IMG/VR virus record: IMGVR_UViG_3300034402_000018
Coordinates: 1-63,082 of that record
Reading direction: 5' to 3' (one strand)
Length of the DNA: 63,082 nucleotides
DNA from: a virus
Shown: positions 42,101 through 61,811 of the stretch, in pieces
Layout: each line of letters opens with the position of its first letter
Position numbering within the stretch: the first letter of the stretch is position 1
Translations under genes and position numbers: made by a program
Notes under the pieces: generated by a model
The model's database searches: none
The model's input: only the letters and a program-made list of their open reading frames with translations
Told to the model about the DNA's origin: nothing

Positions 42101-45100
42101 GGCTGCCGCAGCAAGCTCAGCTCGCTTACTCAACAACGTCGCCTCGAGGTCGTCTATCAACCCCCCGGCAAACGTGCGTACAGCCGCGTCCGCATCGGTC
42201 ACCAGCCCCGCATTCACCGCCTGCTTTATATGGTTGATGGTGACCCGGATATCCTTGAGCAACTCAGCGCCCAGGTTGTACCCCTCGAAGCCTACCAGCA
42301 GGCCCGCCGCCATCGCCTCACCTATGTGGCGGGTAACGCGGGAAGGGGACTTAATCTGGAGCACATCTTCCATGTCCGTAATGAGCAGGCGCATCTGGGT
42401 GCGTATCTCTTCGCGCGTACCCTCAAAGCCTATGTGCGCCCCTTCGGTCATGCCCTCGCCCAGGGCCTCCCCCGCGTGAACGCCCGCCGCCCGCATAACC
42501 GCAGCATCGTCGGCGCGTATGCCCGCGCCCAGCAGCTTGATATCGGTGACGGGCGGCCCAATATGGCGTGTCGCCCCGCCCTGCACAGGACCACCCGGTA
42601 TCCGCTCGAAACGCTGTATGGTGGCGCGGCCAAGCTCGGTGCCGAAATCCGAGCGCTTTTTCGCCACCAGATTGCCCAGCTCCTCGAGCTTGTCGTCGCT
42701 CACCCGGCCCAAGAGACGGGCACCGTCGGTGTAGAAGGCGGCCACCTTCTTACCCAGGAGGACCGCCGCGCCCAGGTTGAACGCCAGAGCGTTGTCAAAG
42801 GCGTCGGCACCCTCGCGCACCAGGGCGACCACAGTGTCGGCCTGCTCAGCTATGGCCAGCGATTTTTCAACGCCCGCGGCCTCTCGGGTCAGGCGGCCGG
42901 TTTCGCTCTTGGCGCGCCGCACGATCTCGCCTACGCTGGAGAGCTGGCCCTGGGCGTTCAGCACCTGTTTGTCCCAGACGGCATTCACCATATCCACAGG
43001 ATTGGCATCCACCATCAACGCGCGCAGCAGGCTGCCGATCTTGCGCTGCTGGGCGCCCGATGCATCCACGATAGAGCGGCCTATAGGGTCGGCGCCCGCC
43101 TCCGCGACGGCTTGCTGTAATAGATTGCGAAGCGCGCCCGCCGAAACATCCATCATCCTGGCAGAGGTCAGGAAGGCCGCATCGACCGCTCTCTTAGTCT
43201 CCTCCTTTGCAACCGCTTCCAGCCTTTCGACAGCTTCTTCCACGGGGGCTGATAACCGCGCCACGCCCTCAGGCTCGACCACCTGCACATTCTCGATACG
43301 CCCACCTATGGCCTTGAAGACCTGGTCATTGAGACGCTTGAGCCGGGCAGCGTGGTCCGTGCCCTCGAAGCGCTGAAGCGCCTGGGCGAGGGCCACATCT
43401 CGCAGGCCGCCGCCGCCGGCAGCGAGTCCCGCGGCCTGCAGCTTGGCGTGAACGCCGGCGAGGGTGGCCTCCCAGTCCTGCAGGTTCTGCCCTTCGGCCA
43501 GCAACAGTGCCTGGATGGCCGCATCCTCGCGAATGATACCCTCTACCGCGGCGCGCATCTCCGCTTGCCTGGTTGCAAGCTCGGCAAGCTGCTGGCCCCG
43601 CAGCTGCTCCTGGAGCTTCGGCTCCCGGCCCGACCTTATACGCACCTGCTGAGAGGTGTCGCCCAGGAAGAAGCCCGATGCCGGGTTCCTGGGGTCGAAA
43701 GCATCGATACCTTCCTGGTCGGGGCTGCGCTGGAACTGGCCGAAAGCACCCTCGGTAAAACGACGCAAGAAAGCGGAGCGGGCCAGGGAGATGCCGGCAC
43801 GCTGCAGGTCCTCGAACCGAAACTGCACGTAACCGCGCATGAAGTCCTGGACAAACTCCGTGAGACCAGCTTTCTCCAGGGCAGACGCCAGATCATGGGC
43901 GCCCTGTGCAGCTAAAGCGTCAAAATCAAAGTCCAGGTCCTCTTGTTTGCCGATTTCGGCAGAGAACTCCTTAGCGAAGGTGGCCACCTTGAAGCCGGCT
44001 GGGGAGGCGGGGATAATCGCGCGCCCGCCCAGTATCTTGAGCGCATCGCGCAGGTCGTCGGGCGTGCTCGTAGGCACCTTGTTATTGAGGAGGGCCCGCA
44101 GCACCACGGCGGGCTGCTGCTGAACGTAGTCGTTGACTAAGGCCTGCATGCGGCGTAGGTTGGCCTCTATTACGGGCCTGCGGCGTCTGACCTCTTCGGA
44201 GAGGGGGTTGAAGCGCACGCGGTGCACCTGGGGCTCCGTGGTTGCGCGTCGTCTGGCATCGGCCTGCAGATCGCGGCGCAGATCCTCCTCGACCTCCCGC
44301 ACGAACTCCTCGTCCTTGGAGAGGATGTCAGCAGCCTGAGAGATACGCTTCGTATCGCCATCTACGATGCGCGCCGCCATCCCCTGCAAATTGGAAGGAT
44401 TAGCCTTGAGGCCCCGCACACGGGCCAGCTCCGCCGCCGCCTGAGCCACGCGCTCCCTGGCGCCCTCAAGATCGGCGTCAAAAGCGCTGGAGGCGCGCGC
44501 CCTGGCCTGCGCCGGGGCCAGGGCGCCAGACCTGATCGCCGGGCCCAGCGCCTGCAGAAAGGCCCGCTTACCCTCAACCAGGCGGCCCAGGGCCTTCTGC
44601 GCATCGGTGACCTCATCCTGCACATCCTTAAAAGCCTTGTTGAGGCTGTTGTCGAGTGCGGCCTGCGCCTCGCGTGCCCCCACCAGGTCGATGGCCAGCT
44701 GGCGAGCGGGAGCCGGGGAGAGGCCGCCCTGGAGGGCCCGGGCGCGGGCGCGCCGTCGCAGCTCGCCCGACTCGCGCTGCCGCTCTATCTCCGCCTCTAC
44801 CTGCAGCGCAATGCTGTTGCGGGCGCGTATCTCCTCGCGCTCGCGCTCTATGGCGTCTTGTAACGCCGATTGGTTCAGGTCACGCGCGCGAGCCTGAGAA
44901 GCTGCCACAGGCACGGGGCGCATCAAGAAGAGGGTGCGGTCGCCCCCGGCTATGCGCCGGCGGGCCGCCTCGTGTCCCTGCGGATCCTCCTGGAAAAGCC
45001 TAAAGAGCGATTCCTGGTGGCGGACATCGCGCAGGCTGGCAAACTGGGGTCCGCGCTCCTTGGGGGCCCTGGCCAGCAATGCATCCTGCTCTCGGATCGC

Positions 45101-48100
45101 CGTATTCAAGGCCTCGGAGAGGAGGGCCTGCTGCTCCCGGCCGCGCCTGCGCGCCTCTACCAGAAGCAGACGGGTGGAGTCCACGCCCAGCGTTTTCGAG
45201 AGCGCCGTCAGCATGCGCTGGTTGCCGGGGCCGAACGCCTGCAAACGGCGCACAGAAGCACGGGCCTGGCCAATGAAGGCTTGCTCCTGCTCGGCCATGC
45301 GCACCAGGCCCTCGCGCTCGGCGGCTATTCGGCCCAGCCACTTCTCGCGGCCCGCCTCGTCGCGGGCCGCCTCGGCGTTGAGGGTGAAGAGCCTGACGGC
45401 ATCGGCGACGTCTCGCTGCCTTTTACGCAGCTTCTCAATCTCGTGCAGTATGTCGCCGAGACCCGCGAACCCGAAGCCTGCGTCGGCCGTGAGCTTATTG
45501 AGATCGTCAAAGAGGGCGAGCGCGCTCCCCTCGAGAGGCCTGCCGCTGGCCACCGACCTCTGCAGGAAGCCCTGCAGCGTGCCTATAACACGCTGTATCG
45601 GCTCCCCGCCTATCCTGGGCGTATGGTTCTCGGCGACCAACCGCCGGACCTCGGCCTCGAAAGCCGCAAGGCCCGCCTCATTGGCCCCACGCGGTGCCGG
45701 TGGCTTCGCACCTGCTCGCCCCACCATGAGGGCCATGCGGCGCACCAGGGCATCCGAGGAGAGCGAGAGGGGGTCGCGGTTGGGGTCGCGCACGTCCAGC
45801 ACCGACTGCACGTCGGCCGGGATAAACGTACCGGCGGCGCCGGATGCCTGCCGTAGGCGCTCGGCTTTGGCCTCGATCGATACAGCCAGGCGCTGCTGCT
45901 TATCGAAGAGATCTATTACAGTGGCGGCCGCCACGTTGTCACCGCGCAGCTTGACCGCCAGCTGCCTGAACTGGCGCGTCTCGAGGTCTATCTCCTGCTT
46001 GAGAGACTCGATCTCCGAAAGCCCGCCCACCAGGCGCTTCGAGCTGGGGTCGCCGGGGTTGCGCAGGGGCCTGGTGCGGGTAACCCCGACAAGGGCGGCC
46101 TTGCCCCTCTGCACCAGAAAGCGGTCGATGGCGAGAGCCCCCTGCCCCCTGGCCAGCGCTAAGTCCTGCTCGTCGAAGCGGTCAGCCTCGGAGCCCAGGT
46201 TAGCCTGGTCAACGCGGGCAAGCATCTGGCGGTTGATCGCCTCGAAACGCTCCAGCTTGCGCTCAAACTCGGCGAACCGCCTCTCGGCACCCGCGGGGCG
46301 CGGCAGGCGCCTATCGGAAAGGCCCAGCTCCGAGAGGCTGCGCGCTTCAAGCATCGCAAGGCCCGCCTCAAGGGAGGCGATACGGGCCAGCGCCCCCGCG
46401 TGCTCACGCTCAGCAATAACAAGCTGACCCTCTTTGCCCTTGGAGCCTACAATCAACTGCTCAAGCCGAGCGCGCTTGTCAGGGTCGTCAGGCCCCCGTA
46501 CCAGCTGGTCGGTGAGGCGCTTCGCCTCGGCTTGGCGAGTACGTAACTGCGCCCCCAGGCGGGGCAGGTCGCTCTGCAGGGCGAGGAGAGCCGTATGCAT
46601 ATCGACGACCGACCCACCGAATTCCGCTATGGTGCGCAGAACGTGGGGCGTGCGGGACCTCGATAACTGCGTCAAGTCGAGCAACGCATCTGTGGCGACG
46701 GTCGTGGTGCCGGTGGCAGCAGCAGCCGTACCCAGCCAGGCATCAAGTGCCCGGCGGGTCCCCTCACCTACCCGCTGGCCCACCTGATCGGCTACCTGCT
46801 GGGTAGCTTTGAGGGCGGCCGCCGAGATCGCGGGCGCCGCCCGCTCCATGTCCTTGAGCGTCTCACGCAGGAACATCTCCGAGGCATTCCGGGGCAGCTG
46901 CACCCGGCGCGCCGTGCCCGTGGGGTCCACCGCGGTAACGTTGGCTGAGTTCACGTCCTGGGCTAGACCCCGCAGCAGCGTGTTGCGCAGGGCCGCCGCC
47001 TGCTTGGGCGTGACCCCTCCCACCGCCTGTGCCGTAGTGAGGCGCTCGAGAGACCGGAGAGCATGCCCGATCTCCCCGATGGCCCGGCTCTGCGTGGAGA
47101 GATCGGAGAGGAGCTCCCCCGCCCGCAACAGCTTCCTGTTGAGGCCCTCGTCCAGGTCGATCTCGTTGAGCAGGCGCATCTCACGCTCGACGTCGTGTAG
47201 TTCTTCAGAGGCCCTGGCAGAGTGCTGCTCGATGCGCAGGATAGAAGCCTCTACCTCCTTGAGCACCGCCTTATCGTCGTCGGGGTCGACGAAGGTTGGG
47301 GATTTGACGCGCAGGCCTCTGTCGCCCTGCTCGAACTGGCGTAGCGCATCGAAATTGGCGCGGCGTATGGCGGTAGAGCGCAGCAGCCCCAGCCCCTCGG
47401 CGCTCTGGATATTGGGGTGCTCGAGGATCGCCGCACGGTCTGCGCGCAGCTCTTCAATAGCTTTGTCGTTCTCGCGCACCGTGCGGCGCAGGTCCTCGCT
47501 GCGGCCGGAGAGGAGACGCTTGCGCTCGGCGGCGGCCGCGAGCTGGGCCGCAGTAATGGAACGCTCCGACTCCTCCACCATCGTGAGGAAAGCGTTGTAG
47601 GCCTGACCGAGGGCCGTCTTATTGCTCTCGAGACCCGCTCGCACCTCTCTGCCCGCGTGCAGCAGGCTTTGCCCGATCTGCTTGCGCACCGAATCGTCTA
47701 TCTCGGCGAGCGCGGGCCCTATCTCGCGCTGAAACTCGGCAACCAATTCCTGGCGCAGACCCTGAAGCTCCCGGCGGGTGCGGGCGCCCACGTCTTTTGC
47801 CAACGAAAGGGCGCCCCTCGAAAGGAGGGAGAAGGTATCGAAGGAGGGGAGCTTGCGGCCCATGGTGACGAAGATATCGTCAGCCAGGCGCTGGTACTCC
47901 TGGAGGGTGGTTTTGGAGGTGATCAGCCCCTTCTGGAAGGCATCGAGCTTGAAAATATCAGGGTCGAGGTCATTTATATCCTCGAGGACGCGCTTGTACC
48001 TGGCGAAGGCGACCGTGCTCTGGGTGGCCTCGGTGCGCAGGCGAGCTATCTCGCGGGAGGCCTTTTCGGCCACTACGCGGATGCGCCTGGGGACCTCCTT

Positions 48101-48226
48101 CTCCAGGCGATCGAGGTCGCGGTCGATGGCGTCGTCGTCCAGCCGCAGGCGCATAGTGGCGTCAACGTCGCCCGCGCTTGCCCCTCCGGCCTGGACTATA
48201 TCGTCATCGAACAGCTCGTCTGCCAT
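33179..48226 (-). CDS. Giant tape measure protein, 5015 residues, with M23 peptidase domain
   Basis: The gene spans 15 kb. Most of the chain is alpha-helical coiled coil (notably residues 2700-3150). The classic tape-measure domain lies near 2410-2590: FNARMETATVGLRVFVKGG, STPFNVDELLGATKRLLAMG. Near 4050-4165 is an M23 zinc endopeptidase (QHTGIDLA with the first His and Asp, GPHLHFEF with the HxH), suited to cutting peptidoglycan at infection. A proline/alanine/valine repeat (VPA) lies near residue 4740. At about 0.15 nm per residue the tail would be about 750 nm. Start ATG 48226 is preceded by GAGGAG. Confidence 0.92.
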   Translation of the reverse strand: MADELFDDDIVQAGGASAGDVDATMRLRLDDDAIDRDLDRLEKEVPRRIRVVAEKASREIARLRTEATQSTVAFARYKRVLEDINDLDPDIFKLDAFQKGLITSKTTLQEYQRLADDIFVTMGRKLPSFDTFSLLSRGALSLAKDVGARTRRELQGLRQELVAEFQREIGPALAEIDDSVRKQIGQSLLHAGREVRAGLESNKTALGQAYNAFLTMVEESERSITAAQLAAAAERKRLLSGRSEDLRRTVRENDKAIEELRADRAAILEHPNIQSAEGLGLLRSTAIRRANFDALRQFEQGDRGLRVKSPTFVDPDDDKAVLKEVEASILRIEQHSARASEELHDVEREMRLLNEIDLDEGLNRKLLRAGELLSDLSTQSRAIGEIGHALRSLERLTTAQAVGGVTPKQAAALRNTLLRGLAQDVNSANVTAVDPTGTARRVQLPRNASEMFLRETLKDMERAAPAISAAALKATQQVADQVGQRVGEGTRRALDAWLGTAAAATGTTTVATDALLDLTQLSRSRTPHVLRTIAEFGGSVVDMHTALLALQSDLPRLGAQLRTRQAEAKRLTDQLVRGPDDPDKRARLEQLIVGSKGKEGQLVIAEREHAGALARIASLEAGLAMLEARSLSELGLSDRRLPRPAGAERRFAEFERKLERFEAINRQMLARVDQANLGSEADRFDEQDLALARGQGALAIDRFLVQRGKAALVGVTRTRPLRNPGDPSSKRLVGGLSEIESLKQEIDLETRQFRQLAVKLRGDNVAAATVIDLFDKQQRLAVSIEAKAERLRQASGAAGTFIPADVQSVLDVRDPNRDPLSLSSDALVRRMALMVGRAGAKPPAPRGANEAGLAAFEAEVRRLVAENHTPRIGGEPIQRVIGTLQGFLQRSVASGRPLEGSALALFDDLNKLTADAGFGFAGLGDILHEIEKLRKRQRDVADAVRLFTLNAEAARDEAGREKWLGRIAAEREGLVRMAEQEQAFIGQARASVRRLQAFGPGNQRMLTALSKTLGVDSTRLLLVEARRRGREQQALLSEALNTAIREQDALLARAPKERGPQFASLRDVRHQESLFRLFQEDPQGHEAARRRIAGGDRTLFLMRPVPVAASQARARDLNQSALQDAIEREREEIRARNSIALQVEAEIERQRESGELRRRARARALQGGLSPAPARQLAIDLVGAREAQAALDNSLNKAFKDVQDEVTDAQKALGRLVEGKRAFLQALGPAIRSGALAPAQARARASSAFDADLEGARERVAQAAAELARVRGLKANPSNLQGMAARIVDGDTKRISQAADILSKDEEFVREVEEDLRRDLQADARRRATTEPQVHRVRFNPLSEEVRRRRPVIEANLRRMQALVNDYVQQQPAVVLRALLNNKVPTSTPDDLRDALKILGGRAIIPASPAGFKVATFAKEFSAEIGKQEDLDFDFDALAAQGAHDLASALEKAGLTEFVQDFMRGYVQFRFEDLQRAGISLARSAFLRRFTEGAFGQFQRSPDQEGIDAFDPRNPASGFFLGDTSQQVRIRSGREPKLQEQLRGQQLAELATRQAEMRAAVEGIIREDAAIQALLLAEGQNLQDWEATLAGVHAKLQAAGLAAGGGGLRDVALAQALQRFEGTDHAARLKRLNDQVFKAIGGRIENVQVVEPEGVARLSAPVEEAVERLEAVAKEETKRAVDAAFLTSARMMDVSAGALRNLLQQAVAEAGADPIGRSIVDASGAQQRKIGSLLRALMVDANPVDMVNAVWDKQVLNAQGQLSSVGEIVRRAKSETGRLTREAAGVEKSLAIAEQADTVVALVREGADAFDNALAFNLGAAVLLGKKVAAFYTDGARLLGRVSDDKLEELGNLVAKKRSDFGTELGRATIQRFERIPGGPVQGGATRHIGPPVTDIKLLGAGIRADDAAVMRAAGVHAGEALGEGMTEGAHIGFEGTREEIRTQMRLLITDMEDVLQIKSPSRVTRHIGEAMAAGLLVGFEGYNLGAELLKDIRVTINHIKQAVNAGLVTDADAAVRTFAGGLIDDLEATLLSKRAELAAAAAALLPTAILQKHVDEIEDAIRQVKVAFSTLKTGPTIPVDDFDRVFGGIDKDGKRFSGSLADLQAAARQRNATERQNTLFDVRGKLAAGFDELAILKERRAALEIEGSALQGLLRDGKLVTKEIAAARDRYKEIEVELRKVTGQHDQLEKHLQRQANLERDLTEKTVGERSRAIEIESARINEGAIAARAQATAFANIEDTLARSTHNMTRFERVLQGAVAAARVLKGDLNPLAAVPGVAALAGRGTVPDLLKTGPLDNARAGLDQFDFRTRKYIEQKAAVEKLQVTLKGLRAEQLHLIDSAGGGRATADQVAAYKGLDRAAERVEARIRKLTNETARFEKQGKGNFLGLIPVLGKLGQAVGNVEQKMAGSGFLGGRGGGSLRSGIVGGVIGSALLQASYALRSGLTNIGDALIGFNARMETATVGLRVFVKGGREAARLSEDILKFATSTPFNVDELLGATKRLLAMGVAANEVLPVFRTLGAAVAAVGGDKDTLNRVILAYGQIRAKNVLISQDLRQLAEAGIPAFAILQRELGLTADQVFDIGRQAINSKEGVDALIRGMNRLYGGALLAQMDTFNGRLANFGDVLTIFVGRIGAPLTDELKKFLEGAANLLQDSGMIRAAETLGDLIGGVARRAREGFFSAQDGILSFARLMPTIVDQVGGELKRLQIFLSEMKFNLDPTQGDIGFDFTRSNEISDQMSKVMSEIFQEAQAKAAKSANFGKQVIDLKVSAEHLQIEIAKGKEAGFKTEIEDMLRAQIAQIPNDIADVPVPIKVSGKIVGFEPGSEEDLINGLQGPALDVLKRFLDDLDQRLAVDAEAGRPAATIAARFREVFLSELAKLGDAPSVAQIQAVIDNLGERLKIPNIFEDAEITKLGQDLAALVGEQSNLESQQRALKALQLEDTRRSRAEQQTIEDKTAAIKKLTDAREKEADAARLQIDAVKDRVDDLNFEKRLFNRAADARIFNQEGTIKGFHAQFDPVLKAFEAAHDRASSALEDLRTQQAAVAASFEVANLHEQRVIADLQDERARKEESYASLIDRATAAEKAHAAVVKSAQLDLRENVRLQQEEIDRIEDKYRAELKVRDAAVRGTSKEIKAAQREQNKRDLDFEQRILAARQRGDQEEVKRLQEEKEQSRLNFENDIAARRALLQVQADEAERIRDEAEEQQRAAKERLEDIQRDGARNADRLEREGELLAANREKVEADRDASILATAAKIKVAQAFLDLLGRTKEDVAALQGQELAAAEGAERAAQRQLDTFKSSYDILFEKQGKALDGIKEEKGQFNQTIDEIIDGLNLQIETMERAEKAAQRKSDAVTKPLENELEILKGQFEVADRLRQQEIDRTTDAVANTQTRIDALNKETEAIEKRMAAEKSIKDAAKRVSTETPPPKLPGTEPLSSTQRVQQFVDRNRLDIELAKAQLDLLNGDMETMVALVEKVVRLADRAGLNLSAAEIVEGLIPPDSFVPQVGVDADVVHFLILAAAGGTREELARFFEDPAFLEKLARAVRGTVGEKGEPTATGSGATLERLNAILGSGVFGGSEVEAIRKALGLDAAGAVVAGAATVLDVTGWDKAARDQIGAAYEQSAAAQEITRAARDLQAVARALAPEAVDAVRPIEERIADRVQAVLPPLNLKVPGVVQAFAPLFGTDVQRSAIFSALSPASLGNPVPHEQQKAIRDALVEALKTQEGRDTLREELLAHPEEWRVLLERIGLNDQLRESLKGLLGGIAGPFGPEMQRLANTISEKVAEGLQAGKSVIANATAEGIVEPVQRSVSGLAVEAKEAGAAVPPAVAAGVEEGSPAMRDVVRAQVDAVTRLLMGMPEAAGAAGAGVVGPEGLGVMAGPGAQAAVSQYSQDVIDTMLLAMGISLGDDQPINKAGELAQRLIGPKGLAYLSTDAGQAAIKAVADQFGSSINTSLEESLFGDTTTGDADRGIGFSNLGIRVGQSFIEGILNSVRESASDIKEATEEAMAQATGDADSGVPVRPSTAIGRDGARGGIFPLGPGFSRVTQEFSGTQRGQHTGIDLAAVQGTEIRAYDDGKVRVAGWSTVGYGNLVVVDHDGYSTWYAHMDHLPHKGKTFPWVSVGQHVTKGQVIGYVGSTGKSTGPHLHFEFREGKNPTSQVPVNPRRVLPAVGGADVGGAEPGAGTSTTKIAAARKVLTDMVSIVEEAGGDMSVVIDAFLSGATELAANKLARFSGFARSQMKVAFEALRASAQLLGAGGIEQIRLVLQELGLLPGGKKGAAASGKSVTQQFMEEMFPNGLPRKIEVGLDVGLDEVAIQKAWDDFFARHPGLRDQFAEEELNRAHPERQAIRNVAAATADRTLVPELIALLTANSGKEEIADFLKVIAGAPDDRTLFELQGQLRATPGDPILQRILDILQALGVSRDRITAADIKALLFEGNGSVRNATALVANAILLQLQSAPPGEIDPFVADFLNALRRVEGTRTIGDVQALLVQAKGPFAERLKVLIAMLDPNTTIDALRKLIFEDPELNRLRQAQELGVGAPGDVVNLSAGARRIALGLREFLKGLGTAGIDEPGITAILRQLKEADPNAKIADIISGLPDLPSDDTSSLGRFVARLRELASASPDATLGDVQAGLFADLSDENTTALDRNTLAVELNTAAIAKAAGINIDELWQQVLASNSRLVEHVERIAGSAEETAKNTEDTAEHTEDATPPTPPIPGTPGTPAVPAVPAVPAVPVPGIPAIPGISPESWTGALSDEEQARLGAANRKLDGLRTLEQDLLRAIDAAEKRGDDKLAEQLRARLKRAQAAIENLVGLVDAFEGRELPDMQAALQEMLERVKETSPAADQFKEAADAAVELGVKDAESEQNLIARAQFGIERYRRALEEARRKGDAASAREAKRRLEAAEAEMDRLEREARAREAAAAAPPAPGTTVGGEPVMPRPGPGGPTPFSVGSSFVANITNNVTETHDPHATAAQIANAQTWQLRSLAGTLPREGRG
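33972..34016 (-). repeat. 9-bp direct repeat (GCAGGCACC) in the tape measure gene
   Basis: About four to five consecutive copies of GCAGGCACC or close variants code for repeated VPA in a proline-rich linker. Slippage-prone; length may differ among relatives. Confidence 0.7.
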
Positions 48227-49107: not shown

Positions 49108-49917
49108 CTATGATACTGTGCGCATGAAGTCCACGGCGTAGGTAGCGCCGCCCGAGGGCACGCCGGGGAGGGCCGCTCCCACGATGTCCGTCTCGGTCTT
49201 CTTCGCCGCCCAGTCGATCTCGAACACCTGCTTGGTGCGGTTGCCGAGGTCGCCTGCCTTGAAAGGCTGTGCGCGGGCCTTGAAGATGGTGATGCGGATG
49301 TCGCGGCCGACTTCCGGCGTCACATCTTCCTGGATCGCGGCCGCGGTGACCACAATCTCGACATAGGCCGGGGTGAACTCGGCGTTATCGCCGAAGTAGA
49401 TGCGCTTCGCCGTACCGTCAGGCAGGGTGCCCAAAGACGAGGTAGCCGCAGCACCCGACCCGGCGCCGCCGGATATGGTGATCGAAGGCGCCGACATGAA
49501 GCCGGAACCGGGGGTCACCACGTTGATAGCGGTGATCACGCCGCCCGAACGCACCGAGCTGAAGGTCGCGCCCGACCCGCCACCGCCAGAGGTACCGATG
49601 GCGGGGGCCGAGGTGTAGCCTGTACCGCCGTTGGTGACGGTGACCGCGGCCACTTCGTCCACGGCGTATTCGACGCCGGTCTTGCCGAAGATCGCCTCGA
49701 TGACGTCGTCGGACCACTTGTCGGCCGTGAATCGCCCGCTGAGGTCCGCGGACATGAATATCTCCTCCGTCTCGTTGTCACCTTCGTAGGTGATGTTCTG
49801 GACGTTGGTAGACATCGTGAAAGAGTTGCCGAAAGGCACATCGACGTAGGTTATCTCGCCGGCCACGTTGTAGCCGACTTTCGTATCCTTGATCGATGCA
49901 ATTCTGTACTTAGCCAT
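49108..49917 (-). CDS. Major tail (tube) protein with a glycine-rich inserted domain
   Basis: 269 residues. It sits just upstream of chaperones and tape measure, and IASIKDTKVGYNVAGEITYVDVPFGNSFTMS ... MSADLSG is a plausible tube fold. Residues about 88-165 contain VTNGGTGYTSAPAIGTSGGG and VTPGSGFMSAPSITISGG, an insert that also occurs in the protein at 53444 (VTNGGSGYTSDP, NPGSGFTSVP). The insert probably decorates the tube surface. Confidence 0.75.
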   Translation of the reverse strand: MAKYRIASIKDTKVGYNVAGEITYVDVPFGNSFTMSTNVQNITYEGDNETEEIFMSADLSGRFTADKWSDDVIEAIFGKTGVEYAVDEVAAVTVTNGGTGYTSAPAIGTSGGGGSGATFSSVRSGGVITAINVVTPGSGFMSAPSITISGGAGSGAAATSSLGTLPDGTAKRIYFGDNAEFTPAYVEIVVTAAAIQEDVTPEVGRDIRITIFKARAQPFKAGDLGNRTKQVFEIDWAAKKTETDIVGAALPGVPSGGATYAVDFMRTVS

Positions 49918-52278: not shown

Positions 52279-53421
52279 TTAGACCCCCTCTCCGTCCCAC
52301 TCGTCGTCGTCCCACTCGGGCGGGTTGTACGAGCCGCCGTCCCAGTTGGAGACCTGCAGCACCACACCGTTACCGCGCTGGCCGATGCCCGCGCCGTAGT
52401 ACTCGTCGAAGTGGACGTTGATGAAGGGGAAGACCGGGTCGTTGTGGACGTGCATGCCCACGAGCGCCGCTATGTTGGGAACGCGGATGATCAGGGGGTT
52501 CGCCCGAGAGCGCACGCCCTGGTGAGAGAAGCCGAAGATGTAGCCGTCCGGCATCTGGTCGGTGACGCAGATCTTGGCGCGGCCCCGGTAGGAGCCGACC
52601 TGCTGCCAGAGAGCATTGACGGGGATCGCCACCGGCACCAGGATCCCCTCCTGGTTGATGTTGACCACGTCATCGGGGATGTCAGGGTCGCGCTCGAAGA
52701 ACTCGGTGACCACCGGGGACCCTACCTCCATCATCAGCTGCGCGGTGTTCTCCGTGGTCAGGAAGACCACGTTCTCCGTGTAGCCGTGCTCCGAGAGGTT
52801 GAGCCAGAAGGCGTCAAGATCCGCCGCCGTAATCACGTCCTCGGTCGCTGTGCGCATGAAGTGATCGTGGTCGACGTCGAAGGTCTTATAGCCGTTGCGC
52901 GGGGGCTTGGTCTCTTCAGTCAGGTCGCCGTTGTAGAACGGCAACTGGGGCACCCGCAGCCGGGACAGCTCATCGACGATGAAGAACGACGTGTTGTCGA
53001 ACACCCGCCGGAAGAGCATGTTGTACTTGAAGAGCTCGTTGGCCTCGACTACCGCGTTGATCTCGGCGCGAATACCCGAGGAGTCGAGGATCAGGATCTC
53101 CGCGTCGCGGGTCCAGCCGAGGTAGGACTCGAAAGCCTCGAGACCCACGGTGACCGTGATGTCTCTCTTCAGCCTGGTCCTCTGGTCGGCCTTACCGTGC
53201 TCGGCGCGGCGCATCCACTTCGCCGTGGCCTGCGTCACCTTATCGCCGTCAGGTTTATTGGTCACGAAACCCATAAACTGCTCGACAATCAGCTGGCGCT
53301 TGCGTATTAAAGCGGTGAGGGTACTCACTTCCTTCCACAGATCGACGACCCGGACACCGTCCGTGGTCATCTTCTGCGCAAGGTCAGAGTGGATAGTGCC
53401 CTCATAGAAAAACTCTGCCAT
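52279..53421 (-). CDS. Major capsid protein
   Basis: 380 residues. Its size, its position after scaffold and putative decoration genes, and its acidic C-terminal (PPEWDDDEWDGEGV) fit an HK97-fold major capsid subunit. Typical helical spine and loop elements are present (residues 100-200; VNALWQQVGSYRGRAKICVTDQMPDGYIFGF) but I see no individually diagnostic motif. An unclear point is whether the N-terminus is cleaved on maturation. Confidence 0.7.
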   Translation of the reverse strand: MAEFFYEGTIHSDLAQKMTTDGVRVVDLWKEVSTLTALIRKRQLIVEQFMGFVTNKPDGDKVTQATAKWMRRAEHGKADQRTRLKRDITVTVGLEAFESYLGWTRDAEILILDSSGIRAEINAVVEANELFKYNMLFRRVFDNTSFFIVDELSRLRVPQLPFYNGDLTEETKPPRNGYKTFDVDHDHFMRTATEDVITAADLDAFWLNLSEHGYTENVVFLTTENTAQLMMEVGSPVVTEFFERDPDIPDDVVNINQEGILVPVAIPVNALWQQVGSYRGRAKICVTDQMPDGYIFGFSHQGVRSRANPLIIRVPNIAALVGMHVHNDPVFPFINVHFDEYYGAGIGQRGNGVVLQVSNWDGGSYNPPEWDDDEWDGEGV

Positions 53422-53443: not shown

Positions 53444-54157
53444 CTAAAGGGTAGTAGCTCGCTCTATGCGAACCCGAATTCCGTTGGCCTTATCACCCGC
53501 TTTATTGCGAGCGGTACTCACCCGATACGCACGACCGATGAATTGCTTCAACTTGCCGGTACCCGTGGGCACTACGCGCTGTGCAGCCCCCGGCACGGTA
53601 ATTGAGAGCCACACCGCATCGGGTGGTACAAGGCCTGCCAGTTGGCCGGAGTCGGTTTTGAACCCGTTGATACGAGCCATGTCCCAAACTGCATCAAAAG
53701 CCCCGGCCTTCATATCCTTGAGAACCATGCCCAACGCTTCGAGCTGGGTGTAGGTCTCCGCGGTGAGCACTGCCGTCGCTGCCGCGCCGGTGCCACCCCC
53801 GCCGGAGAAACCGATTGTGGGAACCGAGGTAAACCCGGACCCTGGGTTGGATACTGTAACTGCCGTGATCACGCCGGCTACGCGAGTGACGCCTGCTGCC
53901 GCGCCGGTGCCCCCACCACCCGTGATGGTGACCGTGGGGTCGGACGTATAGCCCGAGCCACCGTTGGTGACCTCAATGGTCGCCAAGCCCTTGCCGGTGA
54001 GACCGCCAAAGGCCTTGTACCAGCGCACGACAGAGTCCTCACCCTGCCGCATACCTACAAGGTCGCAGGCTTTGACATCCTCGCCAATCTCCATAGAGGG
54101 GTACTCCACATTGGGCATGACCCCCTTCAGAGTGGCGACTGAGCCGTTTTGTCCCAT
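53444..54157 (-). CDS. Putative head decoration protein sharing a domain with the tail tube protein
   Basis: 237 residues. Residues 60-130 carry VTNGGSGYTSDPTVTITGGGG and VSNPGSGFTSVPTIGFSGGGG, closely like the insert in the tube protein at 49108. The rest (GVMPNVEYPSMEIGEDVKACD, YRVSTARNKAGDKANGIRVRIE) is a small beta protein. Its place between scaffold and capsid fits a capsid decoration protein. The shared domain may be a surface adhesin-like module. Confidence 0.6.
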   Translation of the reverse strand: MGQNGSVATLKGVMPNVEYPSMEIGEDVKACDLVGMRQGEDSVVRWYKAFGGLTGKGLATIEVTNGGSGYTSDPTVTITGGGGTGAAAGVTRVAGVITAVTVSNPGSGFTSVPTIGFSGGGGTGAAATAVLTAETYTQLEALGMVLKDMKAGAFDAVWDMARINGFKTDSGQLAGLVPPDAVWLSITVPGAAQRVVPTGTGKLKQFIGRAYRVSTARNKAGDKANGIRVRIERATTL

Positions 54158-55103: not shown

Positions 55104-56843
55104 TTACGATGACCCGCGGTTGGTATTGGGCTGGGCGTTGGGCTGCCCTGCTGTGCGGGGGTTTGCCGCCCTGATCGTCCGGTCGGGGGCGGTGGGCCTT
55201 GGGGCCTTGGACCGCTCGGCCGTGCGCTGCTGGGGCTTCTTACCGGTAGAAGACGCGGGTTTCGGGGCGAGGGCGGCCAGCGTCTTCGCCTTACGCATTT
55301 CCCGCTCGTCCTCCTCGGCCTTTTCCTTGCGAATCTGCTCCTCCTCGGCATCGGCCTCCCGCTCGGTCATGCCCTTATCGAGGCGCGCCCGACGCCTGGA
55401 GATAACCCCGCCCGCCACCTCGCTCGCGCTGATCTGGGCCTGGGTGGCCACGTCCTTGCCTAGCACCGGGTCGACTATGAACTTGAGGTCGTAGGTCACC
55501 CGCGACTCATCTACCTTGGCACGCGATTCGTCCAGGCTCGGATCCTCGGGGAAACCCACGGCATCGGAGACTAAGGCCAGCTGGAGCGCATCTTCCACAG
55601 CGTTGAACTGCACCTCGCGGATCTCCTCGACTTTGTCGACTAGGAGGGTGAGCTGGAGGCCCAGGGCATAGCCGGAATTGGCCGAGAGGTGTTTGATCCT
55701 CTTGAGGTGGGCTTCAGGCACCGCCGCCTCGCAGTCCTCGATCACCAGCTTCAAAAATTCAAGGAGCTGCGGGAGGTTCTTGGCCTCCCACTCCAGGTAC
55801 TCGGCCCTCGCCTGCGGCGTGCCGCCCACGGTGCCGAAGTTGGGGGGCTGGGGGATATACCAGACCGTGGTGCCGTCGCCCAGGGTCTTTTTCTCGAGCT
55901 TGGTCTTGGGGTTGACCCCGTACAGCACTAAGATTGGGTCGGAGTTCATCTTGATATTCTGGGCGAACATCGTGCCCATCTCGTTGATAGAGTCGAGGGT
56001 CGGGATGATATGCTCAAACGTGGCCCGGCCCTCGCCGTGACCGATGTCATTGAAAGGCACCGGTATCACGGGCACCACGCCGAGCGGGTTGGGCCAGCGC
56101 TTACCCAGCTTGCCGTAGGCGTAGAGCTTATGGTCGCGGAAAGAAAAATATTCCTCGTCGGTGATGATCAGCGTGCGCCAGCGCTGCTTACCCTCGGAAA
56201 GGAGAGCCGACGGGTCCATGCGAGCGGTGACCCATGCACCCAGGCTACCGAGGAGTCCTTTACCCCCCTCCTCGGGCTCGGTGTACATGTACTCGATCTT
56301 GGCGCCCAGGAGCCGCTCGTGATTGTGGGGATCCTTGAGCACCGTCATCACTTCGGGATCGTACACATCGAGGCGGGAGGGGGCCTTGGGCTTGCCCTCG
56401 AGCCAACCGGGGATCACCCGCAGGTAAGAGCGGCGAGCCACAGCCCCGTACAGCACGCTGCGCTTGACGCGCATCTCCCAGTGCTCGGTCTCCCACTTCT
56501 TGTCGATGTCGTCCTGGTTCTTATCATTGCGCTTGCGCAGCTGGGGCCGGGCACCCTTGAAGACCAGGCGCTTGTCGACGTCGGCCGCCTCCGTGCAAAG
56601 GGAGAACAGGGGCCGCGTGCCCTGCCAAAACTGCTTGGCCCTCTGTATCTCGGCGGCGGGGTCCCCGGCATCACCCAGAAACTCGGCGTTGTAAGCGTCG
56701 TTCTCGTAATAGCGCCAGTTGAGGGCCGTGCGCGTCTGCACAGCCCCCTCATAGGGGCTGCCCGACATCTTGAGGAGCTGGCGCACCACCAGGGGGAGAC
56801 TGGGGTTATCCTCGTCCGTATCACCACCGAAAAAGGTCGGCAT
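55104..56843 (-). CDS. Portal protein
   Basis: 579 residues, a normal length. NWRYYENDAYNAEFLGDAGDP, WQGTRPLFSLCTEAADVDKRLVF and the long C-terminal helices (ASEVAGGVISRRRARLDKGMTERE) fit SPP1-type portals, the dodecameric ring at one vertex through which DNA enters. The end is basic and alanine/proline rich. It directly follows terminase genes. No break is seen. Confidence 0.82.
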   Translation of the reverse strand: MPTFFGGDTDEDNPSLPLVVRQLLKMSGSPYEGAVQTRTALNWRYYENDAYNAEFLGDAGDPAAEIQRAKQFWQGTRPLFSLCTEAADVDKRLVFKGARPQLRKRNDKNQDDIDKKWETEHWEMRVKRSVLYGAVARRSYLRVIPGWLEGKPKAPSRLDVYDPEVMTVLKDPHNHERLLGAKIEYMYTEPEEGGKGLLGSLGAWVTARMDPSALLSEGKQRWRTLIITDEEYFSFRDHKLYAYGKLGKRWPNPLGVVPVIPVPFNDIGHGEGRATFEHIIPTLDSINEMGTMFAQNIKMNSDPILVLYGVNPKTKLEKKTLGDGTTVWYIPQPPNFGTVGGTPQARAEYLEWEAKNLPQLLEFLKLVIEDCEAAVPEAHLKRIKHLSANSGYALGLQLTLLVDKVEEIREVQFNAVEDALQLALVSDAVGFPEDPSLDESRAKVDESRVTYDLKFIVDPVLGKDVATQAQISASEVAGGVISRRRARLDKGMTEREADAEEEQIRKEKAEEDEREMRKAKTLAALAPKPASSTGKKPQQRTAERSKAPRPTAPDRTIRAANPRTAGQPNAQPNTNRGSS

Positions 56844-56846
56844 TTA

Positions 56847-57152
56847 CTACTCCTTGTCGGGTCGCGGGCCCCAGGGCCTGTGCAGATCGACCGTCCGCTC
56901 CTCGACCACGATAGAGAGGCCCTCTTCCGCCTCCCGTAACTCTTCATCTTCGATCTCGTCCTCGGCCTCCAATATGTGGAGGTACTCCTTAGCCCGATCA
57001 ATGCGGGCAAAGTACCTGGGGAAAAGGCCTAGCTTACGCACCAGGAAGATCAGGGCCGCGTAGCCAAGTGCCCAAATGGTAGAGCCGACCAAGCTGGCAA
57101 GCACCCACCACCAAAAAATCTCCGGACTCACTCTTCCGCCTTTGGGGACCAA
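56847..57152 (-). CDS. Single-pass membrane protein with acidic tail
   Basis: 101 residues from GTG 57152. A transmembrane helix (FWWWVLASLVGSTIWALGYAALIFLV, residues 13-38) is followed by a charged acidic coiled coil (YLHILEAEDEIEDEELREAEEG). Rare in a head cluster; overlaps its upstream neighbour by 25 nt. Function unknown. Confidence 0.55.
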   Translation of the reverse strand: MVPKGGRVSPEIFWWWVLASLVGSTIWALGYAALIFLVRKLGLFPRYFARIDRAKEYLHILEAEDEIEDEELREAEEGLSIVVEERTVDLHRPWGPRPDKE

Positions 57153-57601
57153 TCGGGCCCGCCGCGCTCTCGCCGGAGCGATATGACCTGCTGGTGAGCG
57201 GCCTCTACCGCCTCTTCAAGCGTCCCGCCTGACGAGGTCATAGTGAGAATGCGCTTCTCCTCCTTGGTGCCGGGGCGCGGGGGCATCGGTATGCCCTTAC
57301 CGGGCGGGAAGGTGAAGGTGGCGCGGTTTTGGACGACCTCCTCCATGCGCTGCTCCGGCACTTCAGGCCAGGTCAGGAAGCGCAGCACCGCCTTGGCCGA
57401 ATAGGTGCCATCGGGCAGGTGGAAGTCAACATCGGCCTCGGCAACAATCTCCGCGCTCTCCGCGGTGGCCTCATCGAGCAGGCGCACCTGCTGCACCGAG
57501 AGATCCTCGGCCGGAAACTTCACCACGTCTTCCTTCTCGCGGACTATCCTCTCTTTTTTGGGGTCAAAGCGCTCCATCGCCTCTGAAGTATCATCGAACA
57601 T
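57128..57601 (-). CDS. Hypothetical protein, 157 residues
   Basis: Acidic protein with a helical N-terminus and a beta-rich middle (DVDFHLPDGTYSAKAVLRFLTWP). ATG 57601 is adjacent to the terminase nuclease stop. Between terminase and portal genes; unrecognised. Confidence 0.5.
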   Translation of the reverse strand: MFDDTSEAMERFDPKKERIVREKEDVVKFPAEDLSVQQVRLLDEATAESAEIVAEADVDFHLPDGTYSAKAVLRFLTWPEVPEQRMEEVVQNRATFTFPPGKGIPMPPRPGTKEEKRILTMTSSGGTLEEAVEAAHQQVISLRRERGGPDWSPKAEE

Positions 57602-58426
57602 CTACCATCTCCTCCCTAGCTGCTCTTTGCGCTCTTCCACTTCGCCGTCGCCGCCGGCGAGTATCTCGATGCACATGAAATAGCCCCCCGACACCGAGTC
57701 GACGATGTCGTCTTTGGAGCCGTTGGGGAAAGACTCGCACTCGTCATAGAATGGGTTGAGCCACGAGCCGTCGCGCAGGTACATGAAGCCCTCGCGAGCG
57801 CGGTCCATCCAGGGCTGGGCCTTGGCCACCTTGTCGCGCAGCACGTTGAGGCCGAATATCGCGTAATTGGCGAGCTCGGGGTCCGCCACCAGGTCAAGGT
57901 AAGCCGCCATCTGGGGGCCGTTCTTCTCGCACCCTATCCGCACCATCTCCCCGTCCTCTTTGGCCACCTCGCGGATATTCTTTTTGACCTTGGACCAGTC
58001 GGTGCGCCACCTGACCTGCCCGTAGACGAAGATCTCAAACTGGGTGTAATACTCGTCGAACTTGAAGGCCATGCGGGTGCCGACGGTGTAGTCGGGATCC
58101 TGTTTGGCCACGGCCTTCTCAGTGAAAGCGCAGTCGTAGAAGCGCGCCCAATCGAGCCCCTCGGTGCGCCGGTCGAAGTCCCTGGGCGTGAGCACGCGGC
58201 GACGGTCATCGGACGTGAAGAAAGAGCGATCGAACATGCCGCCGCCGGGAAGACGCGGAGTCTGCTGCCACATCGAGGCCCACTCCTGTGGTCCCTGCAC
58301 GGCCTCTATCTGAGCCAATTGCTTTGCGGTATGGCGCAGGGGGTCGAGAGGCTCCCCCTCGCGGCGGCCAAGTGGGTCCTTGAACGTAGCGTTGCCGTGC
58401 AGGATGGCGGCTTTCAGGTAGGTCAC
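57602..58426 (-). CDS. Terminase large subunit, nuclease part (separate gene)
   Basis: 274 residues from GTG 58426 (overlap GTGA). It begins where a TerL linker normally lies: DPLGRREGEPLDPLRHTAKQLAQIEAVQGPQEWASMWQQTP, then the RNase H-like nuclease with FYDCAFTEK (first Asp), a central acidic region, and NGSKDDIVDSVSGGY. Walker motifs are absent; these lie in the separate gene at 59312-61183. The two genes therefore together make one TerL, with two small genes between them. Confidence 0.85.
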   Translation of the reverse strand: MTYLKAAILHGNATFKDPLGRREGEPLDPLRHTAKQLAQIEAVQGPQEWASMWQQTPRLPGGGMFDRSFFTSDDRRRVLTPRDFDRRTEGLDWARFYDCAFTEKAVAKQDPDYTVGTRMAFKFDEYYTQFEIFVYGQVRWRTDWSKVKKNIREVAKEDGEMVRIGCEKNGPQMAAYLDLVADPELANYAIFGLNVLRDKVAKAQPWMDRAREGFMYLRDGSWLNPFYDECESFPNGSKDDIVDSVSGGYFMCIEILAGGDGEVEERKEQLGRRW

Positions 58427-58986
58427 GGAAGCACCTGCGCACCAGGTGCAAAGCCGTCAGGGGGCGGCCCCGGCACTCCAAACTCGGTCAGACGCCCCTC
58501 CCGCCGCCGCTCGAAGTCAGCCACCAACAGCGGAGTTATTACTCGAGCCTCGCGCTCCGTGTACTTTTCGAGGAAGTCATACAGCACAAACCCGAGAGCG
58601 CGCGCCGCCCCGCCCGCCTCCTTCATGCGAGCAAGAACCAAAAAGAGATCGTTCTGCAGCAGATGGAGCAACTCGTGATACAGAGAAGCGTAGCCGACAG
58701 GGCCCGGCCGCAGCTCAGCCCGGAGGCGCAAAGGCGCGTTCCAGGCAACGGAGCCTGCTCCGATGTTCGCGAATACCACCTGGAAGCCGTCCGCATCGTC
58801 ATCCTCGAAACTCTCCGACATCACCACCTGAATGCGCCACAGTTGCAAATGGAATTTTTCTACGAAATACTCCAAGAACTCCCGCACCCATTCGGGCACG
58901 TCCTCAGCGCACTTGATGCCCGGCTCCGCTTCGTCAGGGAAGCGCAGAGGCGACAGCGCGGCGAACGGCGATATATTCTTACTCAC
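58423..58986 (-). CDS. HELLH zinc-metallopeptidase-like protein between terminase halves
   Basis: 187 residues from GTG 58986, overlapping the preceding stop as GTGA. YHELLHLLQNDLFL contains HExxH, the zincin signature, in a helix, and a downstream YTEREARVITPLL could offer a third ligand. The N-terminus is helical (EWVREFLEYFVEKFHLQLW). It might process head proteins or act elsewhere; no evidence shows which. Its GTGA overlaps on both sides tie it to the terminase genes. Confidence 0.55.
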   Translation of the reverse strand: MSKNISPFAALSPLRFPDEAEPGIKCAEDVPEWVREFLEYFVEKFHLQLWRIQVVMSESFEDDDADGFQVVFANIGAGSVAWNAPLRLRAELRPGPVGYASLYHELLHLLQNDLFLVLARMKEAGGAARALGFVLYDFLEKYTEREARVITPLLVADFERRREGRLTEFGVPGPPPDGFAPGAQVLP

Positions 58987-59315
58987 GGCACACCCCCTAC
59001 CCACATAAGCTGCTCAATAGGATCGGGGAAAACAGGCACAAAGGGCGACAAAGAGAGATTATCCGTCGGTATGAGCGGGTGAGCATACACCTTGCGAGGG
59101 TCGACGCCCAGAATAGCCCGCAACGCCTCCCACCGGTCGGGGTTCGTGAGGATATAAAGATCGTGCAACTCCATGCCCATATCGTGCTTGAGCGTGCGCG
59201 CCAGGTCCATCAAGCATAGAATGGCTGGGTCCGTGATAGGAGGATCTTCGTATGCCTCCAACATGAGTTCCTGGCCAAGGGTGAAGGCGTCCTCCAAATT
59301 AAAGATCTTACTCAC
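58983..59315 (-). CDS. Small hypothetical protein between terminase halves
   Basis: 110 residues from GTG 59315, overlapping the TerL-N stop (GTGA). Helical, acidic N-terminal half (NLEDAFTLGQELMLEAYEDPP) and hydrophobic proline-rich C-terminal half. No family recognised. Confidence 0.5.
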   Translation of the reverse strand: MSKIFNLEDAFTLGQELMLEAYEDPPITDPAILCLMDLARTLKHDMGMELHDLYILTNPDRWEALRAILGVDPRKVYAHPLIPTDNLSLSPFVPVFPDPIEQLMWVGGVP

Positions 59316-61183
59316 GAGTACCCCCTGTTGTTGCGGGAGACCATGTCGGACACGATGAATCTCTCTTTCGACACATTATTCCTCTCCGCCCACACGCGGG
59401 TCTGCTCAGGCGACTCGGCCACTGCCGGTAGGCGCAGCACGTAGTAGAGCTCCCCGCCGTTGGCCTGCTCTTTGAGGAGCCAGCCGCAGATGTCGTTCTC
59501 GTCCCAGCGGGTATTGTGGACTACCACACCGTCAGCTATGAAATTCTCATTGCCTTCGACACTCAGGTCGAAGACCTCCTCTTCCTCATCCTCAAGCTCT
59601 ACCGACGTTACCCTGGTAAGCGCAAAGGGGGCATCTTCAAAATTGACTACGGAGAACCCCATAGCCCAGCTGGTAGCCCAGATAGGCTCAGGGCTGTGGG
59701 GAGGATCATACAGGCGTGTCTGCATGGTCAGGTTGGTCACGCGATAGCCGCAACTCTGCGCCAAAAGCTTTGCGTCGGTAAGCAGCCCGCTATTTGCCGA
59801 GCGGATATTGCACCGCTGGTGCCTGTCGTAGCACCCATCCGCGTCCGAGTACCCCTGTATAAATGCCCGGCGCCGATCAAGGGGCCAAAGAAAGACGTCA
59901 TCCGGAATACGCTTTGTCTTGGCTGTCTTGCCGAACCCCAAACCCAGCCCCTCGAACCACCGGCCCGCTGCCGAGATTTCCGTCCGGTAATAGCCATACT
60001 TTGTTTCCTTTGGGGCCTTACCGAACTTCTCCGTAAAATAGTCCAGGGCCCGGTCGTTGACCTCTTCATGCACGCCGCGGGCAAAGCAGGTCACCCAGCC
60101 CATTGACCCCTTGGCGTTGGGGCGGCGAGTAACCCAACCGTCACCGTACATGAAACCAAGCGCCCAGGCGTCCTCAACAGTGATACCGGGGTCGGGAGCC
60201 AGTGATTCCCAGGAATGCGAGGTAACCACCATGTCCCCGCGTTTCAGGTCCGCCATTTCGACGTAACGATACTCGCCGTCGAACACCAGCACAGGGTGGT
60301 TGCCGGTGCCCCGGACAGTGTGGTTGCCTGTCCTGAGCCTATATATCGGGGCCTTCCCCTGTGGGATAAAGTGCTGGACGACTTTGGGCTCGTGCTTCCC
60401 CTTATTCCAGGTCATCACCCGGTCACCCTCGCAGGCAGATGCCAGCTTGCGCCAGGTGCCGTCCCCCATCAGGACATTTGTATCGCCCACCAAGCACATG
60501 GTGATAGCGATAGCACCGTCCGGGGATATGCGGTTGAAGAGGGAGGTGCGGAACCACCTGATGTGGGAGGCCCGCGTCTTCTCGGACTCCATGTCCTTGA
60601 TGTCGGAGACAGGGTCGTCGACCAGGATCTGGTGGGCGCCGTAGCCGGCGATGGCCCCCGAGACGCCCGTGGCCTTCATGCGGCCTCGGTGGGGCGGTGC
60701 GAGGCGCCACTCGCGGGTGGAAGCGACCTTGCCCGAGATACGGACGGGGGCAAAGCCCGGCGTATCGACGGTGCTGAAGTTACCCTTCTCACCGAAGACG
60801 CGCCCGAAGGCAGGCTCCTGAATCTTGGAGCGCGCCTCGTATGAGAGGTTGTACGCCAGGTCCGCCGTGTGGGAGATCAGGATCTGCAGGTGGTTGGGGT
60901 TGCGCCCGAAATACCAGGCAGGGTAGGCGCGGGAGAATATCTCCGATTTCCCGTACTGCGACGGGACGAAGATCATCAGGCGGTTGATCTTGCGCGACTC
61001 GAGCCATTCGAGGGCGCCCGCGATCAGCTCACGGTGAGGGCGTGTGATGAAGCCGAGGTTGTTCTTGGGGTCCGGGGGCCACATGTACTCGCAGAAGGGG
61101 ATCAGGCGCTGGCGGGCCAGGCGGCGTCGCTCAAGCTCCCGGCGCATCTCCTCTTCCGAAGGCATGTAGCGTGGATTAAGCAC
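59312..61183 (-). CDS. Terminase large subunit, ATPase part, interrupted by an intein
   Basis: 623 residues from GTG 61183 (GAGG 7 nt upstream, overlapping TerS). Extein: Walker A VPSQYGKSE (near residue 80), Walker B QILVDDP, then AIAITM; after the intein, TRWDENDICGWLL and LRLPAVAESPEQ. The protein stops before the nuclease domain, which is a separate gene at 57602-58426. The mature ATPase extein is about 295 residues. It would package DNA with TerS and the nuclease gene product. Confidence 0.85.
   Translation of the reverse strand: MLNPRYMPSEEEMRRELERRRLARQRLIPFCEYMWPPDPKNNLGFITRPHRELIAGALEWLESRKINRLMIFVPSQYGKSEIFSRAYPAWYFGRNPNHLQILISHTADLAYNLSYEARSKIQEPAFGRVFGEKGNFSTVDTPGFAPVRISGKVASTREWRLAPPHRGRMKATGVSGAIAGYGAHQILVDDPVSDIKDMESEKTRASHIRWFRTSLFNRISPDGAIAITMCLVGDTNVLMGDGTWRKLASACEGDRVMTWNKGKHEPKVVQHFIPQGKAPIYRLRTGNHTVRGTGNHPVLVFDGEYRYVEMADLKRGDMVVTSHSWESLAPDPGITVEDAWALGFMYGDGWVTRRPNAKGSMGWVTCFARGVHEEVNDRALDYFTEKFGKAPKETKYGYYRTEISAAGRWFEGLGLGFGKTAKTKRIPDDVFLWPLDRRRAFIQGYSDADGCYDRHQRCNIRSANSGLLTDAKLLAQSCGYRVTNLTMQTRLYDPPHSPEPIWATSWAMGFSVVNFEDAPFALTRVTSVELEDEEEEVFDLSVEGNENFIADGVVVHNTRWDENDICGWLLKEQANGGELYYVLRLPAVAESPEQTRVWAERNNVSKERFIVSDMVSRNNRGYS
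59513..60496 (-). mobile_element. Intein with LAGLIDADG homing endonuclease, in TerL ATPase
   Basis: 328 residues, beginning at Cys (CLVGDTNVLMGDGTW, position 60496) and ending VVVHN at 59513; the next extein residue is Thr. GNHPVLV is block B. LGFMYGDGWV and IQGYSDADGCYD are two LAGLIDADG motifs, and block F is EEEVFDLSVEGNENFIADG. It sits inside the conserved TRWD ATPase motif, a typical intein site that forces precise splicing. Confidence 0.93.
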
Positions 61184-61811
61184 CGGCGGCCCTCTTCTTT
61201 GCCAGGTGCATCTGAATGTCGTTGTCCGACATCTCCTCCAGGTCCAGATCCTCCTCCTGGGCGGGCAGGGCCAGCTTGTTCGGGTTCGAGGCGGGCACCG
61301 CCATGCCGAGGCCGGAGCGGGAGAGACGCACGGCCGCCGAGATAAACTTGGGGATGTCGGCGTCGGCGATCTTGAGAGGCTTATCGGAAGAAGGCTGCAT
61401 GGCCTCTTCAAGGCGGCTCTTGATCAGGCTGAGCATCATGTGACCGACCTTGTACTCCTCCTCCTGCTGCTGGACGATGCGCTCAGCCAGCTTGTCCAGC
61501 TTGCGGTCGACTTTCCTCTGCAGCTTAGAATCGGCCGGGCCGTGCTCGATCCTGAAGCGGTCATACTCGGCGGCGCGCATTATCCAGGCGTAGTGTTGGG
61601 AGGCATCGCCCAGGGCGCCCGAGATCGTGGGCTGGCCGAGGGCGCGAGACATAGCAGTCAGCGAGCGGTCGATGCCCATATCGCGGTACATGGCGAACTG
61701 CTTGAACATCTTCTCGGGCTCGCAATCGAGCCTGTCCCATATGGGGAGGCCATTACTCTGGCGGCGCGCGATCTCTTCAGCCACCTGCGGGTAATGCTTC
61801 TGTGTGGGCAT
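61176..61811 (-). CDS. terS: Terminase small subunit
   Basis: 211 residues. MFKQFAMYRDMGIDRSLTAMSRAL with YAWIMRAAEYDRF is a helix-turn-helix-like DNA-recognition N-terminus, then a coiled coil (DRKLDKLAERIVQQQEEEYK), then an acidic C-terminus for TerL contact. It precedes and overlaps TerL (by 8 nt). It should recognise packaging DNA. Confidence 0.75.
   Translation of the reverse strand: MPTQKHYPQVAEEIARRQSNGLPIWDRLDCEPEKMFKQFAMYRDMGIDRSLTAMSRALGQPTISGALGDASQHYAWIMRAAEYDRFRIEHGPADSKLQRKVDRKLDKLAERIVQQQEEEYKVGHMMLSLIKSRLEEAMQPSSDKPLKIADADIPKFISAAVRLSRSGLGMAVPASNPNKLALPAQEEDLDLEEMSDNDIQMHLAKKRAAGA

Follow-up and report, generated by a model that had tools for sequence, protein, structure and literature searches.

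The terminase large subunit (TerL) is encoded by two separate genes in the virus record IMGVR_UViG_3300034402_000018, a single metagenomic record of 63,082 nucleotides (63 kb) that was analysed whole and is called the window here. One gene specifies the ATPase and the other the nuclease, both on the minus strand, and two small genes lie between them. We think it probable that the product is a two-chain TerL, split after the ATPase core, in which an intein is spliced out of the ATPase and the co-translated halves re-associate non-covalently on the portal as a working enzyme. A division into ATPase and nuclease genes had been put forward in an original prediction made from the letters of the DNA alone, and profile matches, motifs and the standing of the two genes as sole copies in the window bear it out.

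As judged from their sequences, the two halves together are a whole TerL, with the catalytic residues intact in both. With the intein removed, the ATPase half covers positions 260-493 of phrog_38 and the nuclease half positions 476-711, jointly 260-711. The break falls in a variable loop after the ATPase core, between LRLPAVAE on one side and DPLGRREGEPL on the other (DPLGRREGEPLDPLRH on the nuclease side). Because the terminase-family matches reach E = 5e-44 for the ATPase and 2e-26 for the nuclease, neither half is a chance resemblance. A profile search of all frames of the window returned just one ATPase and one nuclease, and no second TerL in the 63-kb record.

The ATPase half is identified by its matches to phrog_4758 and phrog_38 together with Walker A (PSQYGKS), Walker B (ILVDDP) and, in alignment, the C-motif region (TM/TRW); the GKS and DD residues are intact. 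It scores 16.9 bits against PF03237, under the 22-bit cut-off. The end of the chain that is specific to this phage is short and closes in SRNNRGYS. The all-frame search found no nuclease inside the ATPase gene, as had been claimed; what the earlier account of this gene had missed is a 328-residue intein that makes up about half of the open reading frame (ORF). Its removal would take the 623-residue precursor down to a chain of 295 residues. The intein matches PF14890 (E 9.9e-19), TIGR01443 (1.2e-8), TIGR01445 (2.8e-5) and, weakly, LAGLIDADG_3; it has the splice residues Cys1, TGNH in block B, a C-terminal VVVHN and a +1 Thr, as well as the LAGLIDADG-type endonuclease motifs ALGFMYGDGW and FIQGYSDADGCY. 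By these features it is a class 1 LAGLIDADG intein, and we predict that it splices. An intein in this very gene brings to mind a split intein that would join the two chains after translation. We regard this as extremely improbable: the intein is contiguous and complete inside the ATPase ORF, and no intein half is present at the ATPase C-terminus or the nuclease N-terminus.

The nuclease protein, of 274 residues, opens with about 16 phage-specific residues ahead of DPLGR, continues with a linker/lid segment (residues 17-60) and then forms an RNase H-type nuclease with D98, E167, D240 and D243. That this gene begins at the TerL linker (DPLGRREGEPLDP) had been predicted, and the start position was verified. 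Across 68 homologues, D98, D240 and D243 are invariant and E167 is kept in at least 90%. The score against PF17289 is 17.2 bits, with a cut-off of 22.6. An AF2 model built on the alignment of these homologues adopts an RNase H fold at a mean pLDDT of 83, with a helix at residues 34-54, and Foldseek matches it to solved TerL nucleases (8dgc, 5m1f, 5tge, 2wc9 and 3c6h); the terminase nucleases matched come from phages PhiV-1, G20c, P74-26, SPP1 and RB49, plus a herpesvirus. Thus, the protein combines an RNase H-like fold with the acidic metal-binding residues of a TerL nuclease, and profile, catalytic residues and model all speak against an unrelated second enzyme, the finding that would have undone the original prediction.

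If the domains are on separate chains, then they may also act separately, with the ATPase packaging DNA and the nuclease recruited just for the initial and final cuts, so that no stable joint subunit forms. The separation of the domains would permit this, and solved structures exist of TerL nuclease domains that were expressed by themselves (SPP1, 2wc9; G20c, 5m1f). The retained linker/lid segment, however, makes best sense if the nuclease docks onto the ATPase, and we consider separate action unlikely.

The four genes from ATPase to nuclease form an organised set, joined by GTGA overlaps as originally described. Each of the three junctions has this stop/start overlap (59312-59315, 58983-58986 and 58423-58426), and Shine-Dalgarno-like stretches stand before the starts: AGGGGGT ahead of the first two junction GTGs and CAGGTG ahead of the third. 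For the second inserted gene, a start at 58986 is more plausible than the 59004 given by the ORF finder. A short GGGGGT...GTGAGTAAGA similarity at two of the gene starts is accounted for by the ribosome-binding site and start codon. No single polypeptide holds both domains, as 11 in-frame stops (in the ATPase frame) lie between the halves and each half has its own start. Fusion of the halves by read-through or frameshifting was rejected on account of these stops and the separate ribosome-binding sites. The two TerL halves do not differ in third-position GC (0.87/0.87 and 0.83).

An RNA intron of group I or II between the halves, with the TerL message rejoined by splicing as in the Jug phages, would be another way to a single chain. 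There are precedents for introns in terL (Jug phages, PMC12363816; IBB_35, PMC3322345), and the ATPase and nuclease share a reading frame, although chance alone would give this one time in three. Yet two permissive Rfam scans gave no group I or II match between the window halves, where the Jug phages have group I introns, and no intron-type endonuclease was recognised in the interval. Two overlapping ORFs, both equipped with ribosome-binding sites, take up the interval, so that a ribozyme would have little room. The extra residues at both coding ends also fit separate stop and start codons, and we hold an intron to be very unlikely.

The two small genes that had been noted between the halves are indeed there. 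The first has no relatives in Pfam, PHROG, phages or the other collections searched. The second has no Pfam or PHROG match and no relatives in the phages, viral contigs and genome contigs searched; at the level of motifs, its HELLH with a downstream YTEREA hints at a small protein resembling the zinc metallopeptidases (zincins). A single-sequence model of it is of low confidence (pLDDT 59) and has no meaningful structural match. A HEMVH protein close to a single-chain TerL in one surveyed locus (L092) resembles it weakly (pairwise E 0.043).

Third-position GC is lower in the inserted genes, as in the intein, than in the TerL halves (0.68-0.71 vs 0.83-0.87). This is consistent with a later arrival of the inserted genes and the intein; the phage has some further small genes with equally low values. 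No pair of direct repeats bordering the insert, a mark of mobile elements, appears in the repeat listing. The low GC, as expected of newer DNA, and the reliance on a single record would also suit a recent insertion that broke the gene and left decaying remnants, or a misassembled contig. Against remnants or misassembly, the motifs and all four frames are intact, ribosome-binding sites precede the starts and the window has no other TerL, and three exact 4-base GTGA overlaps are not expected of a random join. Both versions therefore seem distinctly unlikely.

A two-chain enzyme could be assembled as follows. The intein would leave the 623-residue precursor to yield the 295-residue ATPase, and the overlapping gene set would allow co-translation of the ATPase, the inserted genes and the nuclease. 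The nuclease would then dock on the ATPase through its linker/lid segment, and the two-chain subunit would take its place in the usual ring on the portal, where it would package and cut DNA. We also entertain, tentatively and as a rather unlikely variant, that the nuclease is an exchangeable subunit that joins the ATPase for cutting only, that the inserted genes regulate or adapt it, and that the loop is a recurrent break point for two-part terminases.

To place the split among related terminases, we turn to a survey of 194 loci from phage records, viral contigs and genome contigs, a redundant sample in which the window itself is counted. ATPase and nuclease lie in one ORF at 187 of these, in keeping with the earlier statement that a normal TerL is one chain. 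The other seven are the window, four loci truncated by a contig end, a single ORF whose ATPase part falls under the threshold (L012), and L069. At this last locus, a prophage-like terL of Acetobacter persici (4935-6409), the domains lie in overlapping different frames, which suggests a frameshift or an error in sequencing. Genes inserted within TerL were found at none of the other surveyed loci. The closest relative, from a Bacillota metagenome-assembled genome (L080), is 37-39% identical across both halves; it is a single chain without additional residues in the linker. In single-chain TerLs of the phrog_38 type (L080; Rctr41k, vir524 and BDU-MI-1), one ORF contains the same ATPase and nuclease, and a linker of 0-20 residues takes the place of the stop codon, the two genes and the start codon of the window phage; the loop ranges from no insert in L080 to about 20 residues in L013, L016 and L149. 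As the relatives are single chains and the loop varies in length, the split is derived and is located in a loop that tolerates insertions.

Two observations weigh against a working two-chain enzyme. The end branch of the window TerL in the tree is long (1.62), which makes its exact sister uncertain and could reflect relaxed selection as well as divergence. The arrangement also comes from a single metagenomic contig, with no second genome that has it found by our scans: neither the viral contigs, scanned singly with the nuclease, the capsid and the second inserted protein, nor the genome contigs, scanned with the second inserted protein, contained the same split in a close relative.

Both TerL halves are enclosed in a packaging module with the order TerS-TerL-portal-capsid. 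The coordinates in the table include those of the ATPase and nuclease genes, which the original prediction had given correctly.

Table. Packaging module of the window, in order of transcription, with the intein listed after the gene that contains it
Feature	Coordinates	Strand	Size	Evidence and context
Terminase small subunit (TerS)	61176..61811	-		phrog_6299, E 1e-12; immediately upstream of the ATPase gene, 8-base overlap
TerL ATPase gene	59312..61183	-	623 codons	GTG start; phrog_4758, E 5e-44; phrog_38
LAGLIDADG intein (predicted to splice)	59513..60496	-	328 aa	Residues 230-557 of the ATPase ORF; between ...AITM and TRWDEND
Inserted gene 1	58983..59315	-	110 aa	GTGA overlap with the ATPase stop; AGGGGGT upstream
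Inserted gene 2	58423..58986	-	187 aa	HELLH, with YTEREA downstream
TerL nuclease gene	57602..58426	-	274 codons	phrog_38, E 2e-26
Two small genes	57128-57601 and 56847-57152			Between nuclease and portal genes
Portal protein	55104..56843	-		PF05133, 5e-11; phrog_64, 2.5e-16; downstream of the nuclease gene
Major head protein	52279-53421	-		Beyond the portal in the module

Elsewhere on the minus strand, two proteins flanking the head genes (53444-54157 and 49108-49917) match virion structural, tail-fibre and head-closure PHROGs over one repeated-type domain and are perhaps Ig-like decoration proteins. A very large tape measure ORF of 5015 residues (33179-48226) matches TMP_3 (1.2e-13) and an M23 peptidase (4.7e-29), and an ORF of 1409 residues (27745-31974) has no Pfam or PHROG match.

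The intein has counterparts in other phages. It lies at the same point as the annotated TerL intein of the mycobacteriophage Phlyer and an insert in the Gordonia phage Vivi2. A TerL6 site f intein has been described in B3/B4 mycobacteriophages such as Chandler (PMC5050341), and we take the Phlyer site to be this one. The mycobacteriophage TerL inteins (Phlyer, Chandler) likewise have Cys1, a terminal HN and a +1 Thr, and are inserted where the C-motif strand ends, ahead of TRW. The TerLs that carry them are single chains, however, and the window intein is distant from them (about 37% over the first 90 residues). TerL genes in pieces have also been documented: group I introns split terL in the Jug phages, where splicing was seen in RNA (PMC12363816), and in the Campylobacter phage IBB_35 an intein and an intron occur together in terL (PMC3322345). 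As in the window phage, genes lie between the coding pieces, but there the arrangement is attributed to introns. Besides these intron cases, the only two-gene terminase in the literature searched is in a paper on Arthrobacter phages. Among the PHROGs, four half-length terminase families of 233-250 positions (phrog_4758, phrog_7579, phrog_9453 and phrog_5573) hint at further TerL genes that are split, or annotated in pieces because of an intron.

For Arthrobacter phages of cluster AT, two genes related to the terminase large subunit are mentioned (PMC5513430). In GenBank, the cultured phages Kitkat, KellEzio, BeatusComedenti (all cluster AT, Kelleziovirus) and DanielleIgnace are annotated with a 'terminase large subunit, ATPase domain' and a 'nuclease domain' as separate genes. 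The original prediction had called a motor of two polypeptides unusual; its rarity among the surveyed loci agrees with this, whereas the implied lack of a counterpart does not hold, as these four phages share the kind of split. Three (DanielleIgnace), five (KellEzio) or six (Kitkat) genes lie between the Arthrobacter halves. The position of the break was examined in Kitkat and DanielleIgnace; BeatusComedenti is known from annotation. In both, the ATPase protein (gp4) ends shortly after YRFRRYAAEF and the nuclease has LWPERW or LWPTRW near its start, which puts the break at the same loop as in the window phage (phrog_38 positions 470-498 in Kitkat, 476-493 in the window phage). No Rfam match to an intron was found in Kitkat or DanielleIgnace. 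Hence the window phage and the Kelleziovirus type have in common two genes, the same loop, foreign genes between them and no RNA intron detected. They differ in the intervening genes, which include a RusA-like resolvase in the Arthrobacter phages, and in the intein, which those phages lack. The proteins themselves are barely related: the ATPases match at E 2e-4 over 56 residues and the nuclease halves have no pairwise match, and the nearest relatives of the window TerL are single-chain, all of which speaks against common descent of the split. As the halves are almost unrelated, the split most likely arose twice, and probably independently in the window phage and the Arthrobacter phages. In DanielleIgnace the split is kept although the halves are just 64-67% identical to those of Kitkat, an argument for a functional arrangement in phages that form plaques; a split TerL thus appears to be viable.

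Truncations are the usual means of studying whether the TerL nuclease needs its tether to the ATPase, be it for passing force or for switching between packaging and cutting. Natural split terminases that appear to work would be a direct test of this requirement. That two TerL lineages distant from each other are split, apparently independently, at one and the same loop suggests that the chain can open there without loss. In practice, phages with a split TerL will be overlooked or misinterpreted by gene finders and by classifications based on TerL. Within the literature searched, the kind had been annotated, not studied, in Arthrobacter phages, and the window phage apparently provides an independent second instance of it.

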